From Mayamaea pseudoterrestris (taxonomy: Eukaryota; Bacillariophyta; Bacillariophyceae; Sellaphorales; Sellaphoraceae): DNA of 64,000 bases. Positions 8,018 through 58,100 of this stretch are shown one piece after another. The notes beneath the pieces are model-generated. The model saw nothing but the letters and a program-made list of their open reading frames with translations, did not search any database and was not told the origin of the DNA. Position 1 is the stretch's first letter. Each line of letters starts with the position of its first letter. The stretch is taken from positions 62,001-126,000 of the forward strand of contig BROI01000039.1 of the NCBI GenBank assembly GCA_027923505.1, written 5' to 3'. The position numbers and the translations under genes are program-made.

Positions 8018-8116
8018 TCAACGGTTTTGCATGCCAACGTCTCGACCATGGCACAAATTCACCGCAACACGCCTCGCGTCCTACTCTCACTTGCAGGGCT
8101 ACTGTAATCTACCACC

Positions 8117-9024: not shown

Positions 9025-9167
9025 TGGACACAATGTAGCGTTGCATGTGTAACTGCATTTGCAGGTTGTCGTCGGCAGCAAATACGAAGCTTACGTGCAG
9101 TAGATAATTATTAATGGTTTTGAATTATATGCTTGCAAGTTTTTGGTAGTAGCTGGGTTTCTATTAT

Positions 9168-9743: not shown

Positions 9744-9870
9744 GCACAATCCAAGTGTGCCGCAAACCCGGAGAGCCTGGGGAGATTGATGGTGCGACAA
9801 GCCGACTGCCTTTCATTTTTCAAAGCAAACCACACGACGCAAAGCATCAACAAGCAAGCGTCTGTTAGTC

Positions 9871-10403: not shown

Positions 10404-11580
10404 ATATGTATTTACATTACTTAATTACAGTTGCTTCCTCCGTACAGTCAGGAAAAGCGCGACATGGTTGCCATCATCGTCGGCGCCCGCCAGCATGTTT
10501 GTGGTGAGCGACTTGCCTTTCGTCGAGTCACCTGTCTTAGCAACGCCTCCACATACCTTCACGCCATTCATAGATAATTCTAAATAATTGTAAATCTTTC
10601 TAATGCAACCAATTGGAGCTGTAGGGATGCTTACGTAGCGCTTGACTCGTCTTTGTAACGGCGAGCTGAACATCAACCGGAAACCATTCATATACTCCTT
10701 CGCCCTCGCTGCCTCATCACATCATGAACCTTTGTCCACGGTTCATTATTGTTTAGAAAATGCTTTGGCCAATTAGTATGCGATAGCGTTTTGGAACGCT
10801 TCGATAGATAGTCTTGCAACAAGCCGACACATACTTGGATGTATTGTGTTCCTCTCACGCTTCTTGATCAGAGCGCCTCTTCCACAGAGAATGCCTCGAT
10901 TAGTGTACGGTAACGATACTGAGTCTTTGCCAGTAAGAGATTCTGTTGTTGAGTGCTGCAAGGGTGCATGGTTGCCGCTGTATCGTGGTGGGCAACCAGC
11001 GGATGAACATGATTCACCGTGGGTTGTATAATGGAAGAAATGATGCCGGAACATCGTGTTTTCCCGTTATCTTGTTTCCGTTGTTTGATATCGCAAGAGA
11101 TTGGCCTCAAAGAGCAAGCTAAGGCCTGCCCCTCTTGTGCCTGCAACCGATTCGTCAACTATACACGTTGGTTTGTCCGCCATATTCCATATTCAACTCA
11201 ATGCACGCGGTCGCTTCCATTGGCACGCAGCATAGTTCGAATTGATGCCTGGCTGCTCGTTGACATGGCAGCTGGTTAATGTGTTGGCGCCGAGAGTTGC
11301 ATGTTCTGCGTACTTTGGAAGAAATACGAGATAATGACGAATGGCGAGGCATCGTCGTCGTCGCCGCCAGCGAATCATGCATTGGGTCTACAAAATCCGA
11401 CATGCCGCTAAACATTGTTTTAATTTCACCACGTTTTCCGAGGCTCAGCCAGTGACAAACTCCTTTCTTGCTGCCGATGTGCTCAGGTCGATCCGCCACC
11501 AAGTGGTTCATGGATCTTGGATGATGGCGAGAATCTTTCGCGATACATCGTCACAGCGGTTCTGCATGGCTATTGTCTTG
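10404..11580. other. No supported gene (copy 2 of 6466-7642)
   Basis: Exact repeat of the gene-poor stretch in the left copy. The same short frames occur, and none is convincing as a gene. Confidence 0.4.
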
Positions 11581-11955
11581 TGACGCAGTTTTCACTGGCA
11601 CTTGTTTCGTATTATTGCCTCAATGACGTAGTTTTCACTGGAACTCGTTTCGTATTATTACCTCAATGACGTCGTTTTCACTGGCACTCGTTTCGAACTA
11701 TTGCCTCATGACGTATTTGACACTGGCACTCGTTTCGTAATATTGCCTTAAAACGTATTTGACACTGGCACTCGTAACAACTATTGCCTTGTGACGGGAT
11801 TGAAAATATCACTCGTTTGACTATTGCCTTGTGACGTAATTGACACTGGCACTTGTTTCGTACTATCGCCTTGTGACGTAATTGACACTGGCACTCGTTT
11901 CGTATTATTGCCTTTTGACGTAATTGACACTGGCACTCGTTTCGCGTTGACGTCA
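11581..11955 (+). repeat. TGACG-led minisatellite (copy 2)
   Basis: Same nine-unit array as at 7643, again ending in TGACGTCA (11948-11955), 100 bp upstream of the second SPC25. That the unit number is unchanged between copies of such a recombination-prone array supports a very recent duplication, or an assembly artefact. Confidence 0.8.
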
Positions 11956-12054
11956 TCAACGGTTTTGCATGCCAACGTCTCGACCATGGCACAAATTCAC
12001 CGCAACACGCCTCGCGTCCTACTCTCACTTGCAGGGCTACTGTAATCTACCACC

Positions 12055-12962
12055 ATGCCTACATCGTACAAAAATTCATTCACGGCTAGTCTCCGTGAAC
12101 GCCTCCATCTCGATCGCTCTCGCATTACCGAATGGGCCGAGCATGAAAAGGAGCATATTGACGTTCTAGCCGAGCGCCATCGATCGCAGGCCATGGAAAA
12201 GCAGGCATCCTTGGATGCATCCATGACGCAATATTTGACGCTTAAAATGCAAGCCGACTGCAAGGTCCAGGAAGCGGTTCAGGCTCAGGGAACTATTGAA
12301 GAGTTGCAAGGGCAATCAGAGGAGCGGTCGCATGAGATTGCTGCTCTTGAAGACAAATTAAACGAGCACCAAACAGCAATGCGGGGTAAGGAAAAAGGAA
12401 GTAAATTGGAATAAATGTAGATTGGCTCAGAATCTCATATTGCTTGGATTATATCTGTCTCTCCAGAACTCCGACTGGATTTGATTGACGAGAAGCATGC
12501 TGTCCAGTCGGCTAGACGAGGTTTGGAGGAAACGCAGACGAGCCCCAACGCGGAGCTTGACATAATTCAGCGACATATCAAGCGCTTCAATTTTCTTGGT
12601 ATTGATTTTGAGAGTTCCGAGAACAGCGTATTGCGGTGAGTGCCTTTGATTCACCTCCTGCTTGTGTGGCTGACTCCGTAACCTTTTTCAACACGAATTT
12701 GTACTAACGCGCACCCTTCTCTTGCCGCAGTTTCATCTTTACTCTCATTGATCCCAATAATCCTGAAAAAGAGTTTTGGATAAAACTGACAACCAACGAC
12801 GAGGATGACTGGGTAGTCACGGATTACGAGCCGGGCTTACACGAAGCTTTGGTCGATGAATGCTTGAACGAATTGAATGACGTCGGAGATGGACTACTGC
12901 AGTTTGTCAGGAGCATACGCCAACTCTTTGTTGCGAGCATAAACAACAAAGAGGAGGAGTGA
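12055..12962 (+). CDS. SPC25: Kinetochore protein Spc25, 3 exons (copy 2)
   Basis: Exons 12055-12385, 12467-12635 and 12731-12962, identical in coding sequence to the copy at 8117 (243 residues, coiled coil plus Spc25 globular domain). It carries the whole upstream minisatellite with it, so both copies should be expressed alike if the duplication is real. Spc25 works in a fixed four-subunit complex, so doubling one subunit alone would upset stoichiometry (inference). Confidence 0.85.
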
Positions 12963-13105
12963 TGGACACAATGTAGCGTTGCATGTGTAACTGCATTTGC
13001 AGGTTGTCGTCGGCAGCAAATACGAAGCTTACGTGCAGTAGATAATTATTAATGGTTTTGAATTATATGCTTGCAAGTTTTTGGTAGTAGCTGGGTTTCT
13101 ATTAT

Positions 13106-15292
13106 TCAAAAGGTTCCGACAAGGAAACCAAAAACCTCCAAGTCTTCAATAGCAAAGATTGTCTCATCACACAAGGGCTCGTTGTTGAACGTGACGCAAT
13201 GGCCAGTCGTACCGATCTGGAAGTGCCGCTCAATCACCAAGCCAAATGCAGTCTGTCCAAGGTCATCGCTGCCTCCTCCAAAAGCTATCCGTTGATTATT
13301 TGCATCGCATAGTTGTACAAACCGATTGACGCCGGACCATTTATACGGAATGACAGTGCCGTCATACATCTTGTACAAACAGGCCGATGGACCGCCAACA
13401 AATTGAGGTGCGTTCTGCCATTCAGCATCGGCAAACGCCCCTAACAAGGACCCCTTGGTGGTCCGAATAACGATCAGTGTACGAGACTGACCCTTGACGC
13501 ACTCCATAAAGGCCGCGAAGGAATCTCCGTCGCGCGAGAGGCGATACAGTCGTCTCCATGGACAGTAAGTAATTCCCTTTGGTATGATCAGCTCAGCGAT
13601 TTGCTGCATCTCTTTGGTGGAAAGCAGGTACGCATACTGATCATCATCATTGTCTTTCACGACGCGGACAGGAGGAATGTAGTCTACATCATCAATTTCA
13701 TCTGGCTTCACTGCAATTGAAAAATCCTTAATAGAAGTTGCGGTTGCATTGGCGACAACGTCATGGACGCTACAATAAATTAGCATGTTGGTTGTTAGCC
13801 TTGCAAAGCACTGAATGAGGCCGGCGGCACATGCCAAACTTGTCACCGCTAAGGGTGCGAATTCCATGCGACCCCAAAATGATATGGGAAGCCCCTCCAA
13901 CATAACAATAACAGCAAACACACCCACTAGAGATACTCCAACCCATGCCTTTTCTGTGTTGCTGGTTCGTCCGACGAATGCGTATAGTGCAGCCATGTAG
14001 GCCATATAGCTCGTCAACTTTAGAAGGAATTCCCTCGGCTCAAACAGGAGCGGAAACAAGCCCAACAATCCCCATGCCGTGGACTCCCACAGCAGTAGTG
14101 TATATTGCTTGTCCAAGGCAGCTAGAAACGTCAGTAGCACAAGTGTCGTCATGATTGCCTTTTCGTGAACGTGGTAGGCAGTCAGGAACGACACCATGGC
14201 CGAGTACGCGAGCGAAAGTAGCAGAAGATGATTGTCGCGTTGCGCGGCCGCCATCCATGCCGCTTTGGCGCCAATCATGAGAAAGAGAAGCATGATCATG
14301 CCGACAATGAAAGGAGAAACATCTGGCAGCGACGCCTGAAACAGCTTGGCAAACACCTTGTCGATGGCCTTGTAAACAGCCCAAACGTTGCCAGCCCAGT
14401 AGTCGTGAACTAGGCCCCGACCAAACGGAAAGAGTCTCGAAGCAATTTGCTTCACTAGCAAAGTCGGCTGCGGCGACGTCATGAGCAGCGGCAAAAAGGG
14501 CGTCATTAAACAATGCAACGTCCCCACTCCCAGTAGCAACAGTCGCTCAATGCTGAATTTGTTCTGCACAAAGCAGAACCTTCTCAGTAAATAGGCAAAA
14601 TACCAGAGCGCCAGTGTCAAGTACAAGTGTTTGAGCGTCAAGAGAATGGCAAATAAGGCGGCACCGACGAGCTGGTAAATGTCGGATGCAGCCGTTGGTT
14701 TGCCGCATCGTAGCTCGAGCTTATTCGCTTGTAGCAGACACGCCACCGATAAGAACAAGACTCCCAACAGCAAACCATTGTATTGAAAGTGGACATGATC
14801 CAGCCATATTAGTCCAGGATTAAGAACTGTGAAGAGAAAGCCAGGCATGCTCATGCTTGCCTCCGACGATTCGACAGCCACTGCCATGGTCCCAGCTCCC
14901 AGCCACAAGACAAGGTCGCCTACGATAACAGTTGATCTCATGAATGCGACGCATCGATTCGATATGGAATCTTTTAGTTCATTGTCATTTAGTAGCTCCA
15001 AACAAGTTTCGTCCAATATGAAACGTTGCAGCAACGTGCGTGTCACGTAGTTGTTGGCGAACGCACTTTCCAGAAAGGCAAAGCCGGGTGGATAGTCGAG
15101 CGTATGCTTCGTTGATACATAAACGTCGTCAAAGTACCATTCGCTCATTGGTAAATGCTTCGTCACTGCCTTCCAATGTCGATGGACGAGAAAATCAGTG
15201 GAATAGTAGGATGGAAAGAGGAGAATTTTGCTGCTGGTTGCAATGAGAAATGTGCAAATTAAAAGCGACTTGTTACTGACAGCAAACGTCAT
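13106..15292 (-). CDS. ALG8: ALG8 alpha-1,3-glucosyltransferase fused to a TLDc domain
   Basis: One uninterrupted frame of 728 codons from ATG at 15292. Residues 1 to about 540 are the multispanning ER enzyme that adds the second glucose to the dolichol-linked N-glycan precursor. They show the ALG6/ALG8 motif TLDYPPGFAFLE in the first luminal loop, LDHVHFQYNG, and HVHEKAIM, with about ten hydrophobic helices. From about residue 560 a TLDc domain follows (SLLGAFADAEW, IAFGGGSDDLG, FGLVIERHFQIG, then a C-terminal VFGFLVGTF). ALG8 proteins normally end after the last helix, so the TLDc tail is unusual. A short intron with a non-standard donor near the joint (about 13740-13800) cannot be excluded, but the frame is open without one. 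The first 86 codons recur at 18149-18407. Confidence 0.85.
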   Translation of the reverse strand: MTFAVSNKSLLICTFLIATSSKILLFPSYYSTDFLVHRHWKAVTKHLPMSEWYFDDVYVSTKHTLDYPPGFAFLESAFANNYVTRTLLQRFILDETCLELLNDNELKDSISNRCVAFMRSTVIVGDLVLWLGAGTMAVAVESSEASMSMPGFLFTVLNPGLIWLDHVHFQYNGLLLGVLFLSVACLLQANKLELRCGKPTAASDIYQLVGAALFAILLTLKHLYLTLALWYFAYLLRRFCFVQNKFSIERLLLLGVGTLHCLMTPFLPLLMTSPQPTLLVKQIASRLFPFGRGLVHDYWAGNVWAVYKAIDKVFAKLFQASLPDVSPFIVGMIMLLFLMIGAKAAWMAAAQRDNHLLLLSLAYSAMVSFLTAYHVHEKAIMTTLVLLTFLAALDKQYTLLLWESTAWGLLGLFPLLFEPREFLLKLTSYMAYMAALYAFVGRTSNTEKAWVGVSLVGVFAVIVMLEGLPISFWGRMEFAPLAVTSLACAAGLIQCFARLTTNMLIYCSVHDVVANATATSIKDFSIAVKPDEIDDVDYIPPVRVVKDNDDDQYAYLLSTKEMQQIAELIIPKGITYCPWRRLYRLSRDGDSFAAFMECVKGQSRTLIVIRTTKGSLLGAFADAEWQNAPQFVGGPSACLYKMYDGTVIPYKWSGVNRFVQLCDANNQRIAFGGGSDDLGQTAFGLVIERHFQIGTTGHCVTFNNEPLCDETIFAIEDLEVFGFLVGTF

Positions 15293-15385
15293 CTTTCATT
15301 GAAACGGATTCTTGTCGCAAATGATTGCCTTGAATGTAGAGGCGGAGCAATGGACAATGCTGCTGGTTTTGATGGTCGTGTTAAT
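15034..15385 (+). repeat. 352-bp direct repeat, left copy (ALG8 5' end and flank)
   Basis: Bases 15034-15385 recur at 18149-18500 with no difference seen. The repeat contains the first 86 codons of ALG8 and the 93 bp upstream of it. Between the copies lie 2,763 bp of unrelated DNA with a copia fossil. Left and right outer flanks show that the original order was ALG8 (-) followed by the membrane microprotein gene (+). Confidence 0.9.
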
Positions 15386-16169: not shown

Positions 16170-17745
16170 AGGCTCTACTTGGAAGCGAAAACGAAAGAGA
16201 AGGTTTATATCGTGGCAGGTCCGGAGTTCGGGGAGCTCGAGGGTCACACGCTCACGATCGTGAAGGCATTATACGGTCTTCGCACGTCAGGCGCACGCTG
16301 GCACGAGCACTTTGCAGACACGCTCCGCGACATTGGCTTCACGCCGTGTATCGCAGAACCGGACGTGTGGATGCGCTGGCACACGCTAATACGTTTGTGT
16401 GTATGTCGACGATTTAGCGATAGCGATGAAGAATCCGAAGGAACTAACGGATCTTTTAATTGAGAACTACAACTACAAGTTGAAGGGCGTCGGTCCATTG
16501 GCATATCATTTGGGCGCAGACGTTTGGCGAGATGACGACGGCGTACTCTGCTTCGGAGCGAAGAAGTACGTCACAAGACTACTAGCGAACTACAGAGAAA
16601 TGTTCGGCGAGGAACCGCGACCGCAGACAAGTCCACTACGCGACGGCGATCATCCGGAACTCGACGAAACGAAAGAACTTGACGACGACGGAATTGCGAA
16701 GTATCAATCGATCATTGGTGCGTTGCAATGGGCAGTAAGTTTATGTCGATTCGACATTCACTGTGCTGTCATGACTATGGGGAGATTCCGAGCTGCGCCA
16801 CGAGCGGGGCACTTGGAACGGTTGAAGCATATTTGCGGATACTTACGACGATACCCGGATGGAGCGATTCGATTCAACGTTTCGATTCCAACGGACGAGC
16901 GATACGCGACAGTTGACAAGATGGATTGGGATTACAGTGTAATGGGCAAGATCTGCGAAGAGCTTCCGTGGAACATGCCCACGCCGCGGCAAGGCGGTGC
17001 GAATGTCAACGTTCGAAGATGCGAACCTGTACCACGATTCACCCAGGGACGGGCAGCGATGGGCATGCTACACATGTTGAATGGGAAAGTCGTCGATTGG
17101 TTTCGAAACGCCAAGCGACGGTCGAGGCGACGTACGGCTCGGAGTTTGTAGCAGAGAGAGTAAGCACGGAGCAGATCATGGATCTTCGTTTCACGCTACG
17201 GATGTTGGTAGTTCCGCTCGACGGACCTTCATGGATGTTTGGAGACAACAAGTCGGTAACGCAAAGCAGCAACCTACCGGACTCTAGTCTGACGGCGACA
17301 CAATGCACTGGCATTTCACCGTGTACGCGGCATCTGGAGGAATTATTAATTTCAACCACATCATGGGAACGACAAACCCGGCGGATGTACTTACCAAGTT
17401 TCTTCCACGGGCTACGGCAAGCAAGCACTTAAAGAACCTGCTCTTCAAGGAATCTAACTATTAGGTATGACTTGAGGGGAGTTGCAGGATGCGAACGAAA
17501 ACAGCGAAAATCGGGCAAGTCACACCGAATGTCCGATAGGGTGACACAGCGGCACTCGCGGCTCACCACAGCCTCACGATCGCGTGATGCGTGGCAGCGA
17601 CGGCTTTGAAGCGATTCAACGAGCATATTGCTGAAACTAGTGCGATATAGAGTAAAAACAAGCAGACTTACTAAGCTTGAAGAGTTAAGAAAGCGATTTA
17701 TTCGTCTCTCGTATTGTAGCAACTGCAAGCTTGGATTGGCCATCC
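16170..17745 (+). mobile_element. Ty1/copia LTR-retrotransposon fossil (RT/RNase H part)
   Basis: Fragments of the copia reverse transcriptase (LYGLRTSGARWHEHF, YVDDLAIA) and of the RNase H end with the family's NPADVLTKFLP-type tail lie on the plus strand between about 16170 and 17450. A purine-rich tract near 17470 and a following AT-richer stretch to about 17745 could be the start of a 3' LTR. I see no 5' LTR, gag or integrase that I can support. The element is partial and broken, with several breaks. It looks like a moderately old remnant. Confidence 0.8.
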
Positions 17746-18148
17746 AAGGACAGCTACAAGCGAAAGGTGCAACGATTTGATTTACAAGTTACAAATCATT
17801 TGCTCTGGCTCAATCACCTTGCTCAATCACCACATGCGTTGGAATATGCGCCAGAAATAGATAGTGTGTCTTCTTTGGGTGCGCTAGAGATGACTGCTCC
17901 GGCAAGTACGATGGTTGTGACAAGTGTGTCTGGTGTGCCACGCGCAAGTTCTCTGGTGCCGGCTGCCGAGTGTGGCGGAATGGCCAGCTACGTCTGGAGA
18001 GTGCCAAGAATGGGACAATGGCAAGAGCGACGGGAGCTCTGGTGGCAACAAATGCAACTGGAGGACCTGCTCTGCTCTGTATGAAGCGTCAACACGTACA
18101 AGTCAAATGCAACTGGAGGACCTGCTCTGCTCTGTATGAAGCGTCAAC
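17746..18148. other. Right part of the inserted segment, with a 55-bp tandem doublet
   Basis: Contains short plus-strand frames, one of them Cys-rich, that I cannot assign. A sequence beginning TGCAACTGGAGGACCTGC is doubled at 18053 and 18108 (period 55). The second unit runs into the 352-bp repeat at a shared ACGT. Its origin is unclear: either part of the mobile element or captured DNA. Confidence 0.4.
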
Positions 18149-18407
18149 ACGTGCGTGTCACGTAGTTGTTGGCGAACGCACTTTCCAGAAAGGCAAAGCC
18201 GGGTGGATAGTCGAGCGTATGCTTCGTTGATACATAAACGTCGTCAAAGTACCATTCGCTCATTGGTAAATGCTTCGTCACTGCCTTCCAATGTCGATGG
18301 ACGAGAAAATCAGTGGAATAGTAGGATGGAAAGAGGAGAATTTTGCTGCTGGTTGCAATGAGAAATGTGCAAATTAAAAGCGACTTGTTACTGACAGCAA
18401 ACGTCAT
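18149..18407 (-). pseudogene. ALG8 5' fragment (86 codons)
   Basis: Begins with the same ATG and first 86 codons as ALG8 (MTFAVSNKSLL to NNYVTRT), then runs one codon into inserted DNA and stops. It holds only the first membrane segment and the TLDYPPGF loop motif, so it cannot be an enzyme. It still lies next to the original divergent flank at 18408-18435, so it may be transcribed from the ancestral ALG8 promoter. The full-length gene at 15292 now has inserted DNA beyond 93 bp upstream. Confidence 0.85.
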
Positions 18408-18500
18408 CTTTCATTGAAACGGATTCTTGTCGCAAATGATTGCCTTGAATGTAGAGGCGGAGCAATGGACAATGCTGCTGGTTTTGATGGTCGTGTTAAT
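18149..18500 (+). repeat. 352-bp direct repeat, right copy
   Basis: Second copy of 15034-15385 (offset 3,115 bp). Its right edge continues uninterrupted into the membrane microprotein frame, while the left copy breaks off into inserted DNA at 15386. The right edge is therefore ancestral. Confidence 0.9.
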
Positions 18501-28449: not shown

Positions 28450-31400
28450 CTACAAAGCGCGCGGCTTCTTGTCGACGACGACAACTTCGACGCTGGAATC
28501 ATCCAACGACGGCCGCTTAAGGCCGGCCTTGGCCGAATGCGCAACAATTTCGACGCTGCTGTCGTCGCTCATAGCAACATCCACCACATATCGCGCATCA
28601 ACGTCATGGAGTGCCTTGGCGAGCAGACTCGCACGACTTTGGACGGCGCGTTTGGACACTCCAATATTTTGCAAGGTGAGTTTTGCAGCAGACTGGGAGA
28701 ATACGTAGAGACGACGTTAGTCATAGCGCGTCTCGTCATCGCAACGCAAACAACTGCTAGCTCAACTTACGACCTCAGTGATACCATAGTCTTGGGTGTC
28801 GAGGTGGACAGAGTTAAAGCCCTTCCGGATAAGCCGCTGAAGCAACAGCATGTCGTGTGCGGCATCTTTTTCATGACCGACACCTACGCCCCTCCATCCG
28901 ATTCCAAGCTCCCACTTTTCAGACGCAACAGATTCACTTGCCTCACTGACAAGCTCAGTAATTAGTGCATCTCTCGTGACAAAAATGTTCCGAAGTCGTG
29001 AAATGACAGCCACTTGTTGCAAAATATTGTAGCAGCCTCGTTTGTCAACGCAGGCAGCAATCACAATGCAATGGCGATCTTCTTCGGGCAAGTCCTCCAT
29101 AAAGTCTTTTGCGGTAAATCCCAACGGAGCACCTGCGCTGTCGACGAGTTCTAAACTTGTACTCCAGCGATGAACTTCAGTTTCCATCCAGTGCAACACC
29201 TTGGGATCCAACCCTATATCGCCTTTCCAAACAGGCAACCCAGGTTTTTTGGAAAGAAAACGTTGTAGCCGAGGAAACATCATTACAGACTTCTTAGCAA
29301 GTTTCTCGGGGTCATCGGCGTACTCGCTAGCCTGAGAACATGCAGCCTCTCTCATGTTGTAGCGACGCTTTGCGTTGTATAGCACTGCTTCCGAATTCCC
29401 TTGAATGCGTCCCTTTGCTTGCTGAACACTCGCCAGCTTCGCCTCTTCCTGCTTTAAGCCGTCTTTCGCACTTTGAATAAGAATCTGACTGAAGCGGTAC
29501 CAAGTCAAAGCGTAGTCGTTGCACGCAACATTTTTCAACAATAATGACTTCCAATCATGTTGCCACACGGGGAGTCCTACTGCACATGCCACTTTCAGTA
29601 TGAGCGTTTCAATTTCAGTAAGATCGAGCAAGTCATCCGAATTTTCTTGGCCTCGTGTGACCACGTACAACTTCCGAGCCGCTGCATCGAAAGCGCGATC
29701 ACCAGATGTCTTTGAGTCGCTTGGAGATTTATTATCGGAGCCAGCAAACGTCTGCAACACATTCGCATCAAGGACCGCCCTTTCAGTAGGAAACATTGCC
29801 TCCTCAGTTTTGCTCGGGATCGGGTCATCGCCCAAAATCACACGAAGCACATTCTTATACAGGCGCGACTTGGTGGAGGTTAGTTCTCGCTTGACTAAAT
29901 CCAAATGATCGACGATTCTTTTCATATCCGAGAAGCGTTCTTTTTGCTGCTTCGCAGACTCGGCTAGTGTTAAGGCCTCGTTTCTGGCAAGCGCGCACAG
30001 ACTCTTTTTTCTATATAAATATTTCTGTGGCGGCGCCTTCATGATTCCGCGGAGAAGCTCGGCCAGAAGTGCATTAATTCGTTGGCTTTGATCCAATACT
30101 GCAAATGGGTACGACGGTTGTTGAATCACTTGTTTCGTTAAGGTGGTAGTAGCCTCCCCAACTGGGTGATGGATCGATTGCCGAGCTAGTAACAGTTTTG
30201 CCCGAGCAAGCAAATCCTTCTGCGAAGGAAGGTCCTGCGCGACATTCGAATCCGGCTCGTGAGCAGCGCTAGCACTTTTCAAAGCCATTTCGTCAACTAT
30301 CCAAGGGAGGTAGAAATTGCCGTCGCCATCTTCACCCGCTTCACTTTCATGCGATTGTTTCAGTCCGTATGCTTTCTTCAGTTCGTCCACTCGTATGCCC
30401 TTCATTTCGTTCAGAAGATCTACGTTAGCGTTGAGAAAAGATGCAGTACGACGAGCGACGGCGAGGACGTCAGTGAAGCTCTCCCTGAGATTTTGCGCCG
30501 AGGGGTCTACGCTCGAGTTGCGCGTACCATCGAAAGGAGGTCCCCATTTCATGCTTGAGTCTTGCGCAATTGCCCGGCAACTCGCGTCTTGCTCAATCCA
30601 GCCATGCTTTGCAATTGCGCAGATCAAGGTGGCATCGTGAGCTACCACCCATTGCGGATGCGGAACTTTTGACTTCCGCTCGACAGTCATCAATGCTGCT
30701 TCAAGCTTATCCGTTACAGAACCCATTGAGGGATTGGCGATCGCTTCTTTGTATAAAGTATTGGCGCTTTCCATATATATACATGTCTTCAAGTTTCTTC
30801 TAGGAAGGCTTACTTTTCTGGGCCTTGTTCGGTCATACAAAAGTTGCAAACAACCGTAGCGCTCCATGAAACTTTGGATCTTATCAGCTGTGACGTTTTC
30901 ATTGTTCAATTCAAGTTCGACTTCACGCTCCTTCAACTCGTGATCTTGGCCACGTCTCCTGTCCAAGTTGTGCAGATCAAGCACGCGGCTGCAAACATGC
31001 TCTAGGTCTGGGTGCAGCTTGCTAGCAGCTTGCATGACGGATTGCTGTGTCCAATACTAACAAGTCGGCAATCTTCGTCAGTTCACTGGTGAATGACATA
31101 ATGAAGGTACTTTGTAGCACTTACCTGCTTATCGTCAAATTCATATTTCGTCTTCCCAGCCTTGTCACCTTCCGTCAACAGTGTTGCTTTCCACCCTCGA
31201 TTCTTTAAAGATTGCCATGTCTGTGCAAAACTAGATGCAATCGCTGAATCCGTTTCTGCCTTGGACTTGAACGTTTCCGGTCGTAGCGTTTGCTCGATTG
31301 AGTCGGAATCTCGTGGCTGGTTTGCTTGCGCGAACGCGACGGCGTCGCACAGAGCCTTATTAATCCAATTTTTGTTTTCTTTCCACAACTCCTCGAACGC

Positions 31401-34400
31401 ATCTTTTGCGATTCTAATTTCTTGGTCAGCTGTAAGTTTTATCAGTGCTGTTCGAGCTAGCATACCTCCGTTTCCAGCGTCGTCTTTAAACGCATCTTTT
31501 GGTGGTTCCATCTCACGTTTCCGGCGCTTTGCTATGACTTCAGCCACACTTTCAAGAAAGGTCATAAATATGACGCTCCACATCATGCGATGAACCTAGA
31601 AGCAGAATGAATGAGTAGTGGTCGCGCCGTACACGAACTGGACCAAGAATGGCTGTCGTTAAGACTTACCTCTTGGTCAGGGAATGAACTGCGTGGACCA
31701 GCAGCCTTGAACAACTCGATGATTCGACAATTGTAGCCATGGGTAGACATCAGCTTTATGATGTGCTCAAAGTCTCCTCTCCCCCATTCGCCCTTCTCCG
31801 GAACGCCTCCCCATCGGTATCGTTCCTGATCTCCTTGTTCGTTGTTGTCATCGTCATTCTCATTCGCGTCAGATGCATCCGAATCCGACACCAAGAGAGC
31901 ATCCTCGACGTCTGCGGCCAACGCCGTTTCTGCGTACGACTTCATCTTAAATTTCTCTCGACGCGATGTCAAAGCTTCCTGCAGCACAGCCTCAACGGCC
32001 GTCTCACCGACAACTTTCTTCCAAAATTCAGGATCATCAACATCTAGGCAGATAAACGCATCAGAAACAATGATTGTAGATCAATCGTCATATTCAACTC
32101 ACCTACGTCTTCATAATTGACATTCCCCGAAGCGTCCGGCGACTTCGCCACTTTGAAGCTGGCTTTTGAAAAAGTACTGCCAGCAGCAGACCTATTAGTG
32201 CCATTGGTACCTTCGTGTACAACAGTCCGCGCATGCCGCTGCATAATCGTGTCAATGTCTTGCTGAATAAATTCGTTTGATTCATCTTCAGCCTTCCCCT
32301 CTTTATCCTCCTTAAAGATCTCATAGGCACCATTGCGAAGTAATCTTTCGATCTCTTCCTTTGACAGCGCGCCCTCACCACTGGCGCCAACCTCAAATCC
32401 ATTTAACACTGCCTGGTCAAGACCCATCTTTAAGCTTGCCATATGGAACATCTGGACTTCATATGTCTTGCGGGTCAGCAGGCGATATACCTAAATAGAT
32501 TGCACAGAAGTGTCAGCAGAGTGTGACGCCCACGATAATGGCACCAATGTAAGCACGAACCTTTACGCTCTTGGTTTGACCAATGCGATGACACCGTCTA
32601 CAGTTTGGAAGAACAGAAGATAAGATAGAAAAATTAGCCGATGCGTTCAACGACTGTCTTAATCTCCGTAGCATACTTACGCTTGTCTGCGTCGCAACAG
32701 ACGAACAAAAAAGGGAAGGAAGTGTGAGCATTAGTATGCAAAAAAGTGGTTTGGTAACGCAATCTCCTGCACTGTAACGTACGCTTGTCTGCAGCATCGT
32801 GAAAAGAATGAGAAGAAGAATAGACGGTGCGTTAGACGTGATGCCAGGGACAAACAAACAAATTTTACCGGCATGTATGACCTACAAGTCGGCCTGTGGG
32901 TTCCAGTCAGAGTCAAAGATAATTACCGTGTCCGCTGCAGTGAGCGTTATACCAACCCCACCGCTGCGAGTGCTCAACATCATAATAAACGGCGACTCCC
33001 GTCCCTCGGTAGGCGGTGCCTGAAATCGATCAATCGCCTGCTGCCGTCTGTGGCCCGTAACTGAACCATCAATTCGCTCAAATACCATATGTCTTGATTT
33101 GAAGTAGTCTTCAAGAATATCAAGCATAATCTTGAACTGCGAGAACATGAGGACACGGTGCCCTTCTTCCTTCAGACGCGGTAGCAGTTTATCGAGTAGC
33201 ACAAGCTTCCCCGATGCCTTTACAAGGAGATCAGCTTCAGATAGACTTTTATTCTCTGCTTGGGCTCGAATAACATCCTCGACGCCATTCAAAAGGAATG
33301 TATGGTTGCAGCACTTGCGCAACTGCATCGCGAGATTGCTAAGACTCGGCCCATCCATCGCCTTCTTCTTCGTTTTGTGGAGAAACCCGACATTCTTCTC
33401 GTACAGCGCGCGGTAGTACTGCTTCTGCATCATAGTCATTTCAATTTCAATTAGCGTCTCTTCCTTTGGTGGCACCGACTTCTCCACGTCTTCCTTGAGG
33501 CGTCGTAGAATAAACGGTCGGATCTCTTCGTGAAGCCCATCAATTGTTTCTTTGCTTTTCATATCAGCATACTTGTCATTGAAGTCATCTGGGTCCGCGA
33601 ATTGATGAGGTTCAATGAAATTTAATAGCGTCCAGAACTCTGAAATTGAATTCTGCAGTAAAGGAATCGTATTTCATAAGGGCATTTAGACACCACAGCC
33701 TATTAGACATCGAGAGGATTACATCCAGCGCGTACCTGAATTGGGGTCCCAGTGAGCAGGAGCTTAAAATTGAAAGAGAACTTTGGGTCGCGCAGCTTGA
33801 CTGCCAGTTTTGACGTATGATTCTTTAAACGATGGGCCTACAGCGACGAGCACGTTTGTCAGAATGTGCAAAAGACGAGAATTAACCACATCAACAATCT
33901 TACCTCATCGACCACCAAGCACTCCCATTCTACAGCAGTTAGCTCACTGACATCGTCGGCGATCATCATTTCAGGCGTCGTCAAAACAACGTCGACCATC
34001 CAGGGACAATCCGTCTTGGTGCGCTTGGGTGAACCGCACTTCTTAAGGTAGAGTTGATTGATGCCGACAGTTTGAGACGGACGGTCATCGTGGTACGCAA
34101 ATTCATGATAACGTAAGTGTTTCCTATCATTCGCTGAGCCGTAGTAGACAATAGTGTTCAAATCGGTCCACGCCTGAAATTCACGTTTCCAGTGAATCAG
34201 TGTCGACAAAGGAGCTATGATCAAAATGGGCCCAAATACACATATCTGTTTGATTATAATGTTCATTGAAGCGGCAGTTTGAAGCGTCTTGCCGAGGCCC
34301 TGAGACAGCGAGTCGATGTAACGTTAAGCGGATTGAAATGCATACGGCAATTACCTCGGCGATTATGTGTTTGCAACTTACCATCTCATCCGCAAGAATA

Positions 34401-36006
34401 CAAGAACGATTGTTGATATAATTAGAAAGCATCCAAGCAACGCCTTCTGCCTGATAATCACGAAGCTGGCCGCCATTTTTAAATTCAAGATTCTGAAGCG
34501 CGAGCTTGTACTCCTCCACCGCTTCTTCCTTGCTTTGTGCGTCAATGGGGCTCTTTTCGCCGAAAATCTTATACAATCGACGCCGTTCCTTTTCGCAAAC
34601 TCTGAGCAACTCTCGCGTGACCGACTTTTTTGGTTTTGTCCGTCGCCGAATAAAGCCTTTCACCTCGTCCTTGTAATCAACGTCTGCGAGAATTAGATCC
34701 CTTTCAAACTCATATGATGCGTCGTCATAACATGTGTTACCCCACTTGACGAGGAACTGCCGACCCGTTCCTTGGTCAAAATCCTTGTGCAGTCGATCCA
34801 AGATTATACCATAATCCTCTAGTGTCGCCTTGTCTTCATTCTCAATCGTCAATGCAGGGCAGCCATCTAGCGGCTCAACATCCAAAATGCGCTCAATCTG
34901 CGTCCATGCCGGATCGAAGTAGTCTCCGTCGCATCGTTCGTCCGCTGACAATAGTACTCCATTACTCATCTTTCGAAAGAAGGTTGTCAATTGCGCCTTT
35001 GACTTGTTGAGCGTATAGCTGTCCAAATCGACCTGCGTCTCCCAAGAGCAGTGAAGGTAGCTCAAGTCACTCCACTTGACGAGGAAGCGTTCCTCAAACA
35101 CATTCTCCATGTCAACTGACGGATCGACTTCTTGATGCCAGCGACTGCCCGTATCAATCTCTGAGGTTTGAATTTTAGCGCAGATTGCTCTCCATGTTGC
35201 CAATGTTTCGGTCCGAACAGCCAGAATGCGGTGAACCCTGAGCGGCTCCCCATCCTCCTCCATTTCGTCGTCGTCGTCATCATCCGACTCACTCTCGGCT
35301 GAACCATCATCCGAAAAGGATCCGTCAGCATCTGCATCCATGGCTGTTGTCGAATGGTCCAGTGACAAGCGAGGCTTGGCGTGCCGTCGGGCCGAAGACT
35401 TTGGCGGACTGCCAAGTGAGGCCAAGGAATCGCGAAGACCACTATCCGGCTTATTGCTGCGTTGTAATCCTCCGGTCCTCTTCTTTGCCGGCGGTGGTGG
35501 CGACTCGCTTTCACTCTCATCCGTATCTTCCAACGTTTCTCGCATGGATCGCTTCATGCGAAAGTCTGCGTCGGACGGTTCCGTCATGGTTTTGGTGCAT
35601 TTCGTGGTGCGCGAGGAAATGCGACGATACCCATTCTTGGTTGCCGCAGGTTTCGCAGACCGGCTGCTAGTCTGCGCCGTTCGTGAACTCTTGCGTCGAG
35701 CGACTGGTTCCTCGCTTGATTCTTCTTCCTCGTCTTCGCTCGTGTTTGAGCTTTGATTGTCGTCGTCGACTGCATCCTCGTCGCCAACGCCAGAGGTGTC
35801 GTCATTCTTGTCGTCATCATCGTCTTCACTTGCCGCAACATCTTCATTCTTTGCCAAAAAGTCAGTCTGCTTGATTTGGCGAGTAGTGCGACGGAGGTTC
35901 AGCTCATCCTGCGGTTGGCAAATTGAATTTGGAAGCGTGAGAGTTGTATAACGAGCAGCGTAACGAATGCTCGGCGACATGAGCCAGACTTACGGACGAC
36001 GACATG
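28450..36006 (-). CDS. CHD: CHD-type chromatin-remodeling ATPase, 13 exons
   Basis: ATP-driven nucleosome remodeler. Exons: 36006-35995, 35908-34382, 34299-33904, 33837-33736, 33652-32886, 32788-32783, 32686-32681, 32597-32561, 32490-32103, 32043-31670, 31595-31125, 31044-28771, 28692-28450. All junctions are GT-AG and in phase; the product is about 2,200 residues. An acidic Ser-rich N-terminus leads to two chromodomains (about 230-320 and 343-420). The SNF2 ATPase has ADEMGLGKT (joined across exons 2/3), VVDEAHRLKN, GTPIQNSISEFW, DIFDSDWNPQ-type motif V as IIFDSDWNPQ, and DLQAQARCHRIGQ. A SANT/SLIDE-like region and a long basic tail follow. The double chromodomain puts it in the CHD family, nearest CHD1. 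An optional in-frame intron near 30790 cannot be excluded. Confidence 0.92.
32681..32686 (-). other. Six-base microexon 2 of the CHD gene (ACAAGC)
   Basis: Preceded by acceptor GACGCAG and followed by donor GTAAGT. It encodes the second Gln-Ala of the QAQAR motif (Q938 and most of A939). Without it and its twin, the protein would lack residues present in nearly every SNF2 ATPase, and the two flanking exons would still join in frame. Confidence 0.85.
32783..32788 (-). other. Six-base microexon 1 of the CHD gene (ACAAGC)
   Basis: Preceded by acceptor GCTGCAG and followed by donor GTACGT. It encodes the first Gln-Ala of QAQAR (Q936 and most of A937). It is identical to microexon 2. The flanking introns are 97, 96 and 83 bp, a normal size for this gene. 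Confidence 0.85.
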
Positions 36007-50617: not shown

Positions 50618-52015
50618 ATGGCAGCAGCAACGACAAGACCTATATGCGCTTGGGCGCTGACTCTGTGGATGCTTGCATCTTGTATTCATGACGCGAGCGC
50701 CTTTGCCAATGTCAATAGTAGCAAGCGACAATCACTCGGCGTCGCCCGAGCAGCAGCAGCATCCGATCTGGGAAGCACCGTCGTTAGCAAACATCACTAC
50801 GACGTTGTCAAGGTTGATTTGGAAGATGGAAGAGACTATCCCATTTACATTGGAACGAAATTTGCAAATGACGAAGGTACGTAGTGTGGCATTGACTCCC
50901 ATGCAGACTACTTGCATTGCTTCTTTGCTCATTCATTTTCGAAAAATTGCCGTGCCACAACTACAGCCGCATCAATACTACAATCGCATATTCACGGAAA
51001 CAAGGTTCTCATTGTCACGAACGATCGCATTGCACCAATGTACCTTGACAAGTACACGCAATTGCTAGCTTCCAATCCTCAATTATCCGTCGACACGTTG
51101 GTCATTCCAGACGGCGAGCAGCACAAGAACTTTGACGTATTGCAAAGCATACTCGACAAGTGTTTGGAGAATAGTTTGGATCGCAAGGCGACACTCGTTG
51201 CCCTGGGCGGCGGTGTCATTGGTGACATGGTGGGTTTTGCGGCGGCCATTTACCAGCGCGGCGTCAACTTTGTGCAAATACCCACCACCGTCATGGCCAT
51301 GGTTGACAGCAGTGTCGGAGGCAAGACGGGGGTGAACCATCCAATGGGTAAAAACATGATTGGCGCGTTTCATCAACCTCAATGTGTTTTTGTTGACACT
51401 GATACACTAGCGACCTTGCCGGATCGGGAGCTGTGTTCGGGTATTTCGGAAATTATCAAGTACGGACTTATCAGGGATGCTGCATTCTTCGAGTGGCAGG
51501 AGGAGCACATGGATGAGTTGCTGCAACGAAACCCTGAGGCGCTGCGGTATGCCATCACAAGGTCATGCCAAAACAAGGCAGCCGTTGTCAAGGCTGACGA
51601 AAAGGAGGCTGGGCTTCGTGCAACGCTGAACTTGGGTCATACGTTTGGACATGCGATTGAGAATGGGTCTGGCTACGGCACTTGGCTACACGGTGAAGCC
51701 GTCGCCATTGGAACCGCCATGGCTACGAGCATGTCGGCGCGACTGGGCTGGATTGACACGAGCTTGGTGAAGCGAGTTTACGACATATTGCACCGGGCCA
51801 AGCTACCAACGGAACTACCATTGGACTCACCCATGAACCGCGACAATTTTCTAAGGCTCATGTCTGTTGACAAAAAGGTGGCCAATGGGCAGTTGCGGTT
51901 AATTTTGCTCAAGGGCGAACTGGGCGAATGCGTCTTTACAGGCAACTTCGACAATGAAGCTATGATTGATACTGTGGATGAATTTGTGGCTGAATGTGGA
52001 GCCATTGCAAAGTAG
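50618..52015 (+). CDS. aroB: 3-dehydroquinate synthase, plastid-targeted, 2 exons
   Basis: Second enzyme of the shikimate pathway: DAHP to 3-dehydroquinate, using NAD and a divalent metal. Exons 50618-50876 and 50967-52015 (90-bp intron) give 435 residues. An ER signal ends in the plastid motif ASAFAN. The core has VIPDGEQHKN, the NAD loop ALGGGVIGDMVGFAA, IPTTVMAMVDSSVGGKTGVN, metal-ligand LGHTFGHAIE and HGEAVAIG. It is a stand-alone enzyme, not part of a fungal-type AROM multifunctional protein. Its stop lies only about 100 bp from the satellite array, so its polyadenylation region is very short or lies in the first repeat. Confidence 0.94.
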
Positions 52016-52117: not shown

Positions 52118-55100
52118 GTTCTCAGCCTGCAGATGCCTTGGCATTCAAAACGCACCTACAGCAGGCCATGTATATACCCAAATGACACCAGAATGGTGCT
52201 AACATCATTATTCAGGCTGCGCTACAAGATGGTAGGCTTGGCTGGTGTCTCAGGGCATGGCTTTGTATTTGGTGACAACTTGTCACCAGTCTCAGCCTGC
52301 AGATGCCGTGACATTCAAACGCCCCTACAGCAAGCCCTGTAGGTGCCCAAAATACACCAGAATGGTGCCAACGTCATTGTTCAGGCTGCGCTACAAGATG
52401 GCAGGCTTGGCTGGTGTCTCAGGGGATGGCAATGATATTGGTGACAACTTGTCACCAGTCTCAGCCCGCGGATGCCGTGACATTCAAACGCCCCTACAGC
52501 AGGCTATGTATACACCCAAATGACACCAGAATGGTGCCAACATCATTATTCAGGCTGCGCTACAAGATGGTATGCCTGGCTAGTGTCTGAGGGGATGGCA
52601 ATGTTATTGGTGACAACTTGTCACCAGTCTCAGATTACTGATGCCGTGACATTCAAATGCCCCTACAGCAGGCCATGTATACACCCAAGCTACACCAGAA
52701 TGGTGCCAACATCAATATAAAAGCTGCGCTACAAGATGGTATGCCTGGCTGGTGTCTCAGGGGACGGCAATGATATTGGTGACAACTTGTCACCAGTCTC
52801 AGCCTGCAGATGCCATTACATTCAAACGCGCCTACAGCAGGCCATGTATAAACCCAAATGACACCAGAATGGTGCTAACAACATTATAAAACCTGCGCTA
52901 CAAGATGGTATGCCTGGCTAGTGTCTCAGGGGACGGCAATGATATTGGTGACAGATGCCGTGACATTCAAACACCCCTACAGCAGGCCATGTATACACCC
53001 AAATAACACCATAATGGTGCCAACGTCATTATTCAGGCTGGGCTACAAGATGGTATGCCTGGCTAGTGTCTCAGGGGACGGCAATGATATTGGTGACAAC
53101 TTGTCACCAGATGCCCGGCATTCAACCTACAGCAGGCCATGTATATACCCAAATGACACAAGAATGGTGCCAACATCATTTTTCAGGCTGCGCTAAAAGA
53201 TGATATGCCTGGCTAGTGTCTCAGGGCATGGGGATAGACAACTTGTCACCAGTCTCAGCCTGCAGATGCCGTGACATTCAAACGCCCCTACAGCAAGCCC
53301 TGTAGGTGCCCAAAATACACCAGAATGGTGCCAACGTCATTATTCAGGCTGCGCTACAAGATGGTAGGCTTGGCTGGTGTCTCAGGGGATGGCAATGATA
53401 TTGGTGACAACTTGTCACCAGTCTCAACCCGCTGATGCCGTGACATTCAAACGCCCCTACAGCAGGCCATGTATACACCCAAATGACACCAGAATGTTGC
53501 CAACATCATCATTCAGGCTGCGCTACAAGATGGTATGCCTGGCTAGTGTCTGAGGGGATGGCAATGTTATTGGTGACAACTTGTCACCAGTCTCAGATTA
53601 CTGATGCCGTGACATTCAAATGCCCCTACAGCAGGCCATGTATACACCCAAATGACACCAGAATGGTGCCAACATCATTATTCAGGCTGCGCTACAAGAT
53701 GGTATGCCTGGCTAGTGTCTCAGGGGATGGCAATGATATTGGTGACAACTTGTCACCAGTCTCAGCCTGCAGATGCCATTACATTCAAACGCGCCTACAG
53801 CAGGCCATGTATAAACCCCAATGACACCAGAATGGTGCTAGGGTAACTTCATTATACAACCTGCACTACAAGATGGTATGCCTGGCAAGTGTCTCAGGGG
53901 ACGGCAATGTGATTGGTGAGTAGTTCTCACCAGTCTCATCCCACAGATGCCGTGACATTCAAACACCCCTACAGCAGGCCATGTATACAACCAAATGATA
54001 CCAGAATGTTGCCAACATCATTATTCAGGCTGCGCTACAAGATGGTATGCCTGACTAGTGTAGTGTCTCAGGGGACGGCAATGATATTGGTGACAACTTG
54101 TCACCAGTCTCAGCCTGCAGATGCCGTGACATTCAAACGCCCCTACAGCAGGCCATGTATACACCCAAATGACACCAGAATGGTGCCAACTTCATTATAC
54201 AACCTGCGCTACAAGATGGTTTGCCTGGTTAGTGTCTCAGGGGATGGCAATGTGAGTGGTGAGTAGTTCTCACCAGTCTCATCCCACAGATGCCGTGACA
54301 TTCAAACGCCTTTACAGCAGGCCATGTATAAACCCATATAATACCAGAATGGTGCCAACATCATTGTTCAGGCTGCGCTACAAGATGGTAGGCTTGGCTA
54401 GTGTCTCAGGGGACGGCAATGATATTGGTGACAACTTGTCACCAGTCTCAGCCTGCAGATGCCGTGACATTCAAACGCCCCTACAGCAGGCCATGTATAC
54501 ACCCAAATGACACCAGAATGGTGCCAACATCATTATTCAGGCTGCGCTACAAGATGGTATGCCTGGCTAGTGTCTCAGGGGACGGCAATGATATTGGTGA
54601 CAACTTGTCACCAGTCTCAGCCTGCGGATGCCGTGACATTCAAACGCCCCTACAGCAGGCCATGTATACACCCAAATGACACCAGAATGGTGCCAACATC
54701 ATTATTCAGGCTGCGCTACAAGACGGTATGCCTGGCTAGTGTCTCAGGGGACGGCAATGATATTGGTGACAACTTGTCACCAGTCTCAGCCTGCAGATGC
54801 CATGACATTCAGACGCCCCTACAGCAGGCCATGTATACACCCAAATGACACCAGAATGGTGCCAACATCATTATTCAGGCTGCGCTACAAGATGGTATGC
54901 CTGGCTAGTGTCTCAGGGGACGGCAATGATATTGGTGACAACTTGTCACCAGTCTCAGCCTGCAGATGCCGTGACATTCGAACGCCCCTTCAGCAGGCCA
55001 TGAATATATCCAAATGACACCAGATTGGTGCCAACATTAATCATTATTCAGGCTGCGCTACAAGATGGTATGCCTGGCTAGTGTCTCAGGGGACGGCAAT

Positions 55101-58100
55101 GATATTGGTGACAACTTGTCACCAGTCTCAGCCTGCAGATGCCGTGACATTCAAACGCCCCTTCAGCAGGCCATGTATACACCCAAATGACACCAGAATG
55201 GTGCCAACATCATTATTCAGGCTGAGCTACAAGATGGTATGCCTGGCTAGTGTCTCAGGGGACGGCAATGATATTGGTGACAACTTGTCACCAGTCTCAG
55301 CCTGCAGATGCCGTGACATTCAAATGCCCTTACAGCAGGCCATGTATACACCCAAATGACACCAGAATGGTGCCAACATCATTATTCAGGCTGCGCTACA
55401 AGATGGTATGCCTGGCTAGTGTCTCAGGGGACGGCAATGATATTGGTGACAACTTGTCACCAGTCTCAGCCCGCGGATGCCGTGACATTCAAACGCCCCT
55501 ACAGCAGGCCATGTATACACCCAAATGACACCAGAATGGTGCCAACATCATTATTCAGGCTGCGCTACAAGATGGTATGCCTGGCTAGTGTCTCAGGGGA
55601 CGGCAATGATATTGGTGACAACTTGTCACCAGTCTCAGCCCGCGGATGCCGTGACATTCAAACGCCCCTACAGCAGGCCATGTATACACCCAAATGACAC
55701 CAGAATGGTGCCAACATCATTATTCAGGCTGCGCTACAAGATGGTATGCCTGGCTAGTGTCTCAGGGGACGGCAATGATATTGGTGACAACTTGTCACCA
55801 GTCTCAGCCTGCAGATGCCGTGACATTCAAACGCCCCTACAGCAGGCCATGTATACACCCAAATGACACCAGAATGGTGCCAACATCATTATTCAGGCTG
55901 CGCTACAAGATGGTATGCCTGGCTAGTGTCTCAGGGGACGGCAATGATATTGGTGACAACTTGTCACCAGTCTCAGCCTGCAGATGCCGTGACATTCAAA
56001 CGCCCCTACAGCAGGCCATGTATACACCCAAATGACACCAGAATGGTGCCAACATCATTATTCAGGCTGCGCTACAAGATGGTATGCCTGGCTAGTGTCT
56101 CAGGGGAGGGCAATGATATTGGTGACAACTTGTCACCAGTCTCAGCCCGCAGATGCCGTGACATTCAAACGCCCCTACAGCAGGCCATGTATACACCCAA
56201 ATGACACCAGAATGGTGCCAACATCATCATTCAGGCTGTGCTACAAGAGGGTATGCCTGGCTAGTGTCTCAGGGGACGGCAATGATATTGGTGACAACTT
56301 GTCACCAGTCTCAGCCTGCAGATGCCGTGACATTCAAACGCCCCTACAGCAGGCCATGTATACACCCAAATGACACCAGAATGGTGCCAACATCATTATT
56401 CAGGCTGCGCTACAAGATGGTATGCCTGGCTAGTGTCTCAGGGGACGGCAATGATATTGGTGACAACTTGTCACCAGTCTCAGCCTGCAGATGCCGTGAC
56501 ATTCAAACGCCCCTACAGCAGGCCATGTATACACCCAAATGACACCAGAATGGTGCCAACATCATTATTCAGGCTGCGCTACAAGATGGTATGCCTGGCT
56601 AGTGTCTCAGGGGACGGCAATGATATTGGTGACAACTTGTCACCAGTCTCAGCCCGCGGATGCCGTGACATTCAAACGCCCCTACAGCAGGCCATGACTA
56701 TACCCAAATGACACCAGAATGGTGCCAACATCATTATTCAGGCTGCGCTACAAGATGGTATGCCTGGCTAGTGTCTCAGGGGACAGCAATGATATTGGTG
56801 ACAACTTGTCACCAGTCTCAGCCTGCAGATGCCGTGACATTCAAACGCCCCTACAGCAGGCCATGTATACCCAAATGACACCAGAATGGTGCCAACATCA
56901 TTATTCAGGCTGCGCTACAAGATGGTATGCCTGGCTAGTGTCTCAGGGGACGGCAATGATATTGGTGACAACTTGTCACCAGTCTCAGCCTGCAGATGCC
57001 GTGACATTCAAACGCCCCTACAGCAGGCCATGAATATACCCAAATGACACCAGAATGGTGCCAACATCATTATTCAGGCTGCGCTACAAGATGGTATGCC
57101 TGGCTAGTGTCTCAGGGGACGGCAATGATATTGGTGACAACTTGTCACCAGTCTCAGCCCGCAGATGCCGTGACATTCAAACGCCCCTACAGCAGGCCAT
57201 GAATATACCCAAATGACACCAGATTGGTGCCAACATCATTATTCAGGCTGCGCTACAAGATGGTATGCCTGGCTAGTGTCTCAGGGGACGGCAATGATAT
57301 TGGTGACAACTTGTCACCAGTCTCAGCCTGCAGATGCCGTGACATTCAAATGCCCCTACAGCAGGCCATGTATACACCCAAATGACACCAGAATGGTGCC
57401 AACATCATTATTCAGGCTGCGCTACAAGATGGTATGCCTGGCTAGTGTCTCAGGGGACGGCAATGATATTGGTGACAACTTGTCACCAGTCTCAGCCCGC
57501 AGATGCCGTGACATTCAAACGCCCCTACAGCAGGCCATGACTATACCCAAATGACACCAGAATGGTGCCAACATCATTATTCAGGCTGCGCTACAAGATG
57601 GTATGCCTGGCTAGTGTCTCAGGGGACGGCAATGATATTGGTGACAACTTGTCACCAGTCTCAGCCTGCAGATGCCGTGACATTCAAACGCCCCTACAGC
57701 AGGCCATGAATACACCCAAATGACACCAGAATGGTGCCAACATCATTATTCAGGCTGCGCTACAAGATGGTATGCCTGGTTAGTGTCTCAGGTGACAGCA
57801 ATGATAGTGGTGACGACTTGTACCAGTCTCAGCCTGCAGATGCCGTGACATTCAAACGCCCTCACAGCAGGCCATGTATACACCCAAATGACACTAAAAT
57901 GGTGCCAACATCATTATTCAGGCTGCGCTACAAGATGGTATGCCTGGCTAGTGTCTCAGGGGACGGCAATGATATTGGTGACAACTTGTCACCAGTCTCA
58001 GCCCGCAGATGCCGTGACATTCAAACGCCCCTACAGCAGGCCATGTATACACCCAAATGACACCAGAATGGTGCCAACATCATTATTCAGGCTGCGCTAC

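Follow-up and report, generated by a model that had tools for sequence, protein, structure and literature searches.

The question raised by this locus is whether a catalytic motif of a chromatin remodeler can be pieced together from two consecutive exons of only six nucleotides each. The gene concerned lies on the minus strand of a window of 64,000 nucleotides (GC content 49 %) from the diatom Mayamaea pseudoterrestris; the window is the whole stretch of DNA that was analysed. The original prediction had read two identical ACAAGC hexamers as separate microexons within the helicase motif of a CHD remodeler. The term microexon stands here for an exon of at most 15 nt with a spliceosomal intron on either side.

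The remodeler gene and the joining of motif VI

The hand-built gene model (36005..28762, minus strand) comprises 12 coding exons with an intact frame and a predicted protein of 2126 amino acids, and all introns follow the GT-AG rule. Pfam searches covered residues 1-1205 and exon 12. Within residues 1-1205 the domains SNF2-rel_dom (250.1 bits), Helicase_C (78 bits) and a single Chromo domain (residues 272-302, 42.2 bits) were found, while exon 12 was without a match. A second Chromo match was absent from residues 1-1205 at an E-value of 0.001; by eye, residues 389-404 (FLVKWGNTCYDDASYE), which have no Pfam match at this E-value, look like the first chromodomain (FLVKWSDLSYLHCSWE). Among the 60 listed of 77 PDB matches, human CHD1 (9ear, 424 bits) was the top solved structure, followed by human CHD4 (6ryr, 408 bits). 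The predicted protein contains an SNF2 ATPase core with the Helicase_C lobe, and this core and motif VI are common to the window protein and the CHD/SNF2 remodelers CHD1 and CHD4. The locus is best explained as a gene for a CHD-family ATP-dependent nucleosome remodeler.

Motif VI is spanned by the predicted residues 935-946, and in the two-microexon model exon 5 is joined to exon 8 through the predicted sequence ACAAGCACAAGC (Table 1). The microexons provide the last base of Leu935, the codons of Gln936, Ala937 and Gln938, and two bases of Ala939. The positions on which the original prediction was built are correct: the hexamers stand at 32788-32783 and 32686-32681, GCAG preceding each and GTACGT or GTAAGT following, exon 5 ends with GAC TT at 32886, exon 8 starts with ACGGTGTCATCGC at 32597, the introns have the claimed sizes of 97, 96 and 83 bp, and exons 5-8 sum up to 767+6+6+37 = 816 nt. 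The borders are canonical, CAG/ACAAGC/GTACGT for microexon 1 and CAG/ACAAGC/GTAAGT for microexon 2. As had been stated, the joining TT/ACAAGC/ACAAGC/ACGG restores the QAQA family motif in frame, and the frame is kept with two, one or no hexamers, the join without hexamers yielding DLRCHRIGQ. Among the three join products, the motif VI form QAxxRxHRIGQ was found in the two-microexon product alone. In fragments of 195-199 residues, Helicase_C scored 82.2 bits when both Gln-Ala pairs were present, 72.8 bits with one pair and 68.6 bits with none. The arginine-finger equivalent in exon 8 was located by counting along the CHD4 sequence in the PDB alignment.

Table 1. Coordinates of the predicted remodeler gene and of the region around the two microexons
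Feature	Position	Strand	Description
CHD-type chromatin remodeler gene	28762..36005	(-)	hand-built model with Pfam Chromo, SNF2-rel_dom and Helicase_C
Exon 5	32886..33652	(-)	767 nt; ends ..SDWNPQAD + TT
Intron 5	32789..32885	(-)	97 bp; GTAGGT..CAG; CTAAC 32835-32831 (-47), then pyrimidine-rich stretch
Microexon 1 (exon 6)	32783..32788	(-)	ACAAGC; phase 2 start
Intron 6	32687..32782	(-)	96 bp; GTACGT..CAG; CTAAT 32734-32730 (-48); longest pyrimidine run 16 nt
Microexon 2 (exon 7)	32681..32686	(-)	ACAAGC; phase 2 start
Intron 7	32598..32680	(-)	83 bp; GTAAGT..TAG; CTAAT 32637-32633 (-40)
Exon 8	32561..32597	(-)	37 nt; starts ACGGTGTCATCGC; completes Ala939; carries CHD4 arginine-finger equivalent

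Other features were observed elsewhere in the window. Two head-to-tail copies of a 3939-bp segment (5806-9744 and 9744-13682) are 100 % identical, and each has a 42-bp tandem array inside; either the duplication is very recent or the repeat is an artefact of assembly. A single open frame at 13109-15295 (minus strand) encodes both an ALG6/ALG8 domain (13802-15238) and a TLDc domain (13124-13633). This fusion may be a product of the 3939-bp duplication or of a misassembly, since the join adjoins the edge of the duplicated segment at 13682. Direct repeats of 369 bp with 98.6 % identity (15017-15385 and 18135-18500) enclose a weak RVT_2 match below the cutoff (16390-17151). These repeats may be LTRs of a Copia-type element or, since the first of them overlaps the ALG6/ALG8 match in its N-terminal portion, may stem from a duplicated gene fragment. 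A gene for DHQ synthase (50618-52015; putative join of first exon and main frame at 50885) starts with MAAATTRPICAWALTLWMLASCIHDASAFANV, a plastid presequence of the ASAFA type. Such presequences are a hallmark of algae with red secondary plastids, diatoms among them, and indirectly support the diatom attribution. The best PDB match of the gene was 3zok, presumably of plant origin. About 0.1 kb past the end of this frame begins a satellite array (52120-64000) with roughly 70 copies of a 169-bp unit, approximately 95 % alike, which reaches the end of the window. The unit is of nucleosome length, and the satellite could be centromeric or subtelomeric.

Homologous motifs and alternative splice chains

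The motif segment was free of gaps in the five displayed PDB alignments of the 77 matches (E-value 1e-30; 60 listed), with QAQA in CHD1, QAFS in CHD4 and QAMD in the ISWI-type chains 6ne3 (presumably of this type), 6pwf and 6jyl. Further loci were found with a four-row ATPase alignment, three in a viral contig collection (L001-L003) and two in a genome contig collection (L004, L005). L005 was left out, its match covering just 22 residues, and of L003, a distant SNF2 protein with 23 % identity, the motif alone was used. The motifs read QAQD (L001), QAMD (L002), QAED (L003) and QAQA (L004), so that four residues of the form QAxx are kept in nine of nine homologous motifs compared. Close relatives were not found in the viral contig collection, either with exon 5 alone as query or with the start of exon 9 aligned to L004.

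The apparent orthologue of the window remodeler is L004, with 45 % identity over residues 711-1175 and 31 % over residues 287-697, the post-ATPase region included. The L004 contig is assigned to a Verrucomicrobiaceae MAG, yet its CHD remodeler gene (L004 1-4690) looks eukaryotic and has intron-like interruptions of about 33 nt; owing to these the contig is probably eukaryotic contamination of a bacterial record. QAQA is encoded without a break in L004, thus introns that split this motif are not universal. L001 and L002 are also unbroken through the motif; they may belong to other SNF2 subfamilies. In the alignment, L004 shows three intron-like breaks of 11 codons each. As read from the alignment, none of its breaks at DEMGLG/KT, HRLKN/SK and, a few codons upstream of QAQA, DSDW/NPQ (33 nt) coincides with the compared intron positions of the window gene, DEM/GLG, DE/AHR, PIQ/NS, L/QA/QA/R and VK/VYR. 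A possible shared position lies near window residue 1080, where the alignment is poor and each gene is interrupted. From this single pair of genes intron positions look mobile, and most simply the introns splitting the motif would have been gained in the window lineage after its split from the L004 lineage; alternatively, they may have been lost in L004.

Chance occurrence of the hexamers was evaluated in several ways. That the two hexamers are identical carries little weight alone, because each has to encode a codon end and Gln-Ala in the same phase. The exact 10-mer AGACAAGCGT occurs twice in 64 kb, both times at the microexons, against an expectation of 0.11, and at least two copies appeared in one of 100 shuffles. 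With up to two mismatches, CAGACAAGCGTANGT also matched just the two microexon copies in the window; 13 of 100 shuffles likewise gave two matches at this lax setting, so the exact 10-mer is the better test. Splice chains were enumerated from DWNPQ to HRIGQ with GT-AG introns of at least 40 nt, four introns at most and the nine codons fixed in the family. Nine chains kept family length and frame; five of these were free of stops and three fitted xD[LIV]QAxxRx. Splice sites were scored with weight matrices built from those eight introns of the gene that have no microexon at either end. The weakest donor of the proposed chain scored 5.7, just below the training range of the eight other donors (5.9-9.4), and its weakest acceptor 5.1, within the training range of 4.5-7.3. 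Each of the remaining eight chains contained one or more donors at or below -0.5, hence the proposed chain alone is without a weak site. Among 5000 dinucleotide shuffles of the gap, three produced any family match, none QAQA and none a family match with equally strong sites.

The other two fitting chains define a rival reading, in which microexon 1 (or its acceptor) is real and the second small exon differs: ACAGTC would lead to QAQS, or a shifted pair to QAYS, in either case through the donor GTTGAA. Both chains are in frame and fit xD[LIV]QAxxRx, and CHD4 reads QAFS at the corresponding position. Their donor scores -2.6, however, compared with 5.9-9.4 in the eight other donors, and their acceptors 1.1 and 0.2 compared with 4.5-7.3 in the others of the gene; moreover, L004 and CHD1 have QAQA, and CAG/ACAAGC/GTAAGT would be left without use. 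We regard this reading as very improbable. The hexamer of microexon 1 is used in both chains, in one case inside a 10-nt exon. Microexon 2 is used in neither and is for that reason somewhat less certain than microexon 1. Still more improbable is a pseudogene, an assembly error or a chance pattern in which the hexamers are not exons at all. The exact 3939-bp tandem repeat elsewhere in the window indicates that assembly or locus may be imperfect, but the reading frame of 2126 codons is intact across 12 exons, and none of the 5000 gap shuffles produced QAQA. The two-microexon gene model is strongly supported by sequence, splice signals and homology.

Layout of introns 5-7 and origin of the pair

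Introns 5-7 share a distinct layout, a distant CTAAY (-47, -48 and -40) with a pyrimidine stretch after it. Among the other eight introns, four have just CTGAY at -21 to -26, intron 4 has CTAAT at -54, and three are without CTRAY. In the last 27 nt before the AG the pyrimidine fraction is 0.78, 0.74 and 0.74 in introns 5, 6 and 7 and 0.44-0.70 in the other eight; in this post hoc comparison on one gene the three are the pyrimidine-richest of the eleven introns over the last 27, 36 or 37 nt, and one of 165 triples is as high. Resolved by distance, the excess is located at 21-40 nt (1/165 triples), not at 5-20 nt (32/165). Measured from the candidate branch point, intron 10 is the pyrimidine-richest (0.83). 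Three introns of the next gene, read by eye, had fractions of 0.70, 0.74 and 0.63 in the last 27 nt; the largest open frame of that gene was without a Pfam match. Introns 5-7 are among the longest of the gene (3/165 triples). Their donors lack G at exon position -1, as does the donor of intron 1, and agree with CAG/GTAAGT in 5-6 of nine positions, the others in 6-9. AC follows each of introns 5-7 and none of the other eight. The predicted RNA fold of 32561-32906 is ordinary (z -0.89; 22 of 100 shuffles fold as well), and Rfam gave no match at the gathering threshold within the window.

The hexamers are identical chiefly through the repeated Gln-Ala with the same codons, Leu-Gln-Ala-Gln-Ala being written as TTA CAA GCA CAA GCA, and a duplication need not be assumed. 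A different origin would be a tandem duplication of an exon-intron unit, or introns 5-7 as copies of one mobile intron (introner). Introns 5-7 have in common the following AC, absent after the other eight introns, the CTAAY at -40 to -48 and the pyrimidine stretch, and the alignment of intron 5 with intron 7 beats 994 (local) and 995 (global) of 1000 dinucleotide shuffles. This similarity faded in shuffles that hold donor, branch point, tract composition and acceptor: the counts of shuffles as good rose from 6 and 5 to 36 (local) and 152 (global) of 1000. The pairs 5-6 and 6-7 show no local similarity (405 and 463/1000), and their global values of 47 and 88/1000 in the plain shuffle became 711 and 795/1000 with the architecture kept. 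In a screen of all 55 intron pairs, z values above 2.5 were obtained for 1-6 and 6-8 as well, about as chance allows, and a convincing copy of introns 5-7 was not present elsewhere in the window (best other E-value 0.11). Besides, as the family has four residues at this place anyway, a duplication would imply an extra pair. These tests did not support a duplication of the introns, and this origin is considered unlikely. The AC after introns 5-7, unlike the other eight, leaves room for a shared target-site preference.

Constitutive inclusion, skipping and known parallels

In the proposed mechanism, a 12-nt coding segment would be interrupted by three short introns, one at each end and one in its middle, so that two 6-nt exons remain and each supplies one Gln-Ala of the motif VI segment. 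Splicing would most likely proceed by intron definition, as each of the introns of 83-97 bp carries its own donor, branch-point-like CTAAY and pyrimidine-rich stretch. The introns may be removed one after another, since 6 nt leave hardly any room for factors to sit on the two exon ends simultaneously. For plants it was suggested that the two introns flanking a microexon leave one after the other (PMC8831610), and by analogy we assume the same here. Nearly all functional mRNA would most likely contain both microexons. This constitutive inclusion is favoured because nine of nine homologous motifs keep the four residues; the full reading, a CHD gene with two constitutively included microexons, is given a joint probability of about 0.82. 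Sequence, frame, splice motifs, homology and uniqueness in the window are seen directly; splicing itself, constitutive inclusion and the order of intron removal are deduced from them.

The layout of the introns decides neither for constitutive nor for regulated use. In human genes the T-rich stretch lies 5-20 nt upstream of constitutive micro-exons, but at a distance of more than 20 nt in the case of alternative ones (PMC4317164). The pyrimidine content of introns 5-7 was initially taken as a sign of constitutive use and then dropped, as the excess at 21-40 nt, rather than 5-20 nt, resembles human alternative micro-exons; the confidence in constitutive use was thereby slightly lowered and that in a switch slightly raised. 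Branch points near the AG go with early upstream splicing, and the 3' context tends to be weak in neural microexons that depend on SRRM4 (PMC10250204). Candidate branch points of the microexon introns are distant from the AG, unlike the early-splicing case of that study; together with ordinary CAG or TAG acceptors they fit neither class cleanly, and the evolutionary distance is very large.

In the original prediction, splicing was seen as a possible switch. Regulated skipping would produce isoforms with two, one and no copies, the short ATPases being inactive or dominant-negative, and would tune remodeling. It could draw on join products that are all in frame and would not be removed by nonsense-mediated decay, on nearly identical borders of both microexons (CAG/ACAAGC/GTANGT) and on the pyrimidine excess at 21-40 nt, which is more like that of human alternative than of constitutive micro-exons (PMC4317164). 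Since the four residues are kept in all nine homologous motifs, the microexon splice sites are about as strong as those elsewhere in the gene and the predicted RNA fold is not unusual (z -0.89), regulated skipping appears improbable. Interchangeable borders and in-frame skipping products would also permit a length dial, a regulated ratio of full-length enzyme to nucleosome-binding, ATPase-defective one- or zero-copy forms; this we consider a speculative and rather doubtful variant.

Effects of skipping can be estimated from studied remodelers. The arginine finger of CHD4 is R1162 in motif VI; in Drosophila dMi-2 the equivalent of R1162Q lowers the ATPase activity to 19 %, and H1151R leaves 55 % of the ATPase activity with a loss of remodeling (PMC5974244, PMC7338049). 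Counted along CHD4, the microexon residues correspond to Q1155-S1158, between H1151 and R1162 and four to seven positions ahead of the arginine finger. With two residues deleted at the motif, the arginine finger would be displaced against the remainder of the lobe. Skipping should therefore harm the ATPase and presumably cause a loss of activity. With the four residues kept in nine of nine motifs, the shortened product would probably not work as a normal enzyme. As the skipping products are in frame, such errors would not be cleared by nonsense-mediated decay.

Adjacent microexons have precedents. Plant Peptidase M1 genes of rice, Arabidopsis (AT1G63770.5) and Zygnema contain adjacent microexons of 5 and 12 nt, likewise a pair of tiny neighbouring exons within conserved coding sequence; they had been overlooked by annotation and are fused in other algae, which the authors read as gradual intronization (PMC8831610, PMC11096116). 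The plant exons are of unequal size with RT-PCR or RNA-seq support, whereas the window gene has an identical 6-nt pair in SNF2 motif VI that is read from DNA alone. Human RPS24 resembles the window gene in having several consecutive microexons, three between exons 4 and 6 (PMC12686416, PMC11162997); these are described as alternatively spliced, and the residues concerned in the window gene belong to a catalytic motif kept in nine of nine homologues. The pair had been called very unusual, which is fair for two identical 6-nt exons in a catalytic motif but not for adjacency, as adjacent microexons are already known (PMC8831610, PMC11096116). As a rather extreme, recognisable case of the known micro-exons the predicted pair is well supported.

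Annotation misses of microexons were reported in plants (PMC8831610), and automatic annotation would probably miss the present ones and report a wrongly joined ATPase. Microexons in diatoms, stramenopiles and protists seem little studied: judged by title and start of the abstract, none of the papers retrieved from the open-licence PMC literature was on this subject. The pair suggests that such pairs can also originate in lineages other than land plants and their algal sisters. It would present an extreme natural test of the minimal exon size of the spliceosome, twice running and in catalytic residues, where missplicing would delete these residues without triggering nonsense-mediated decay.
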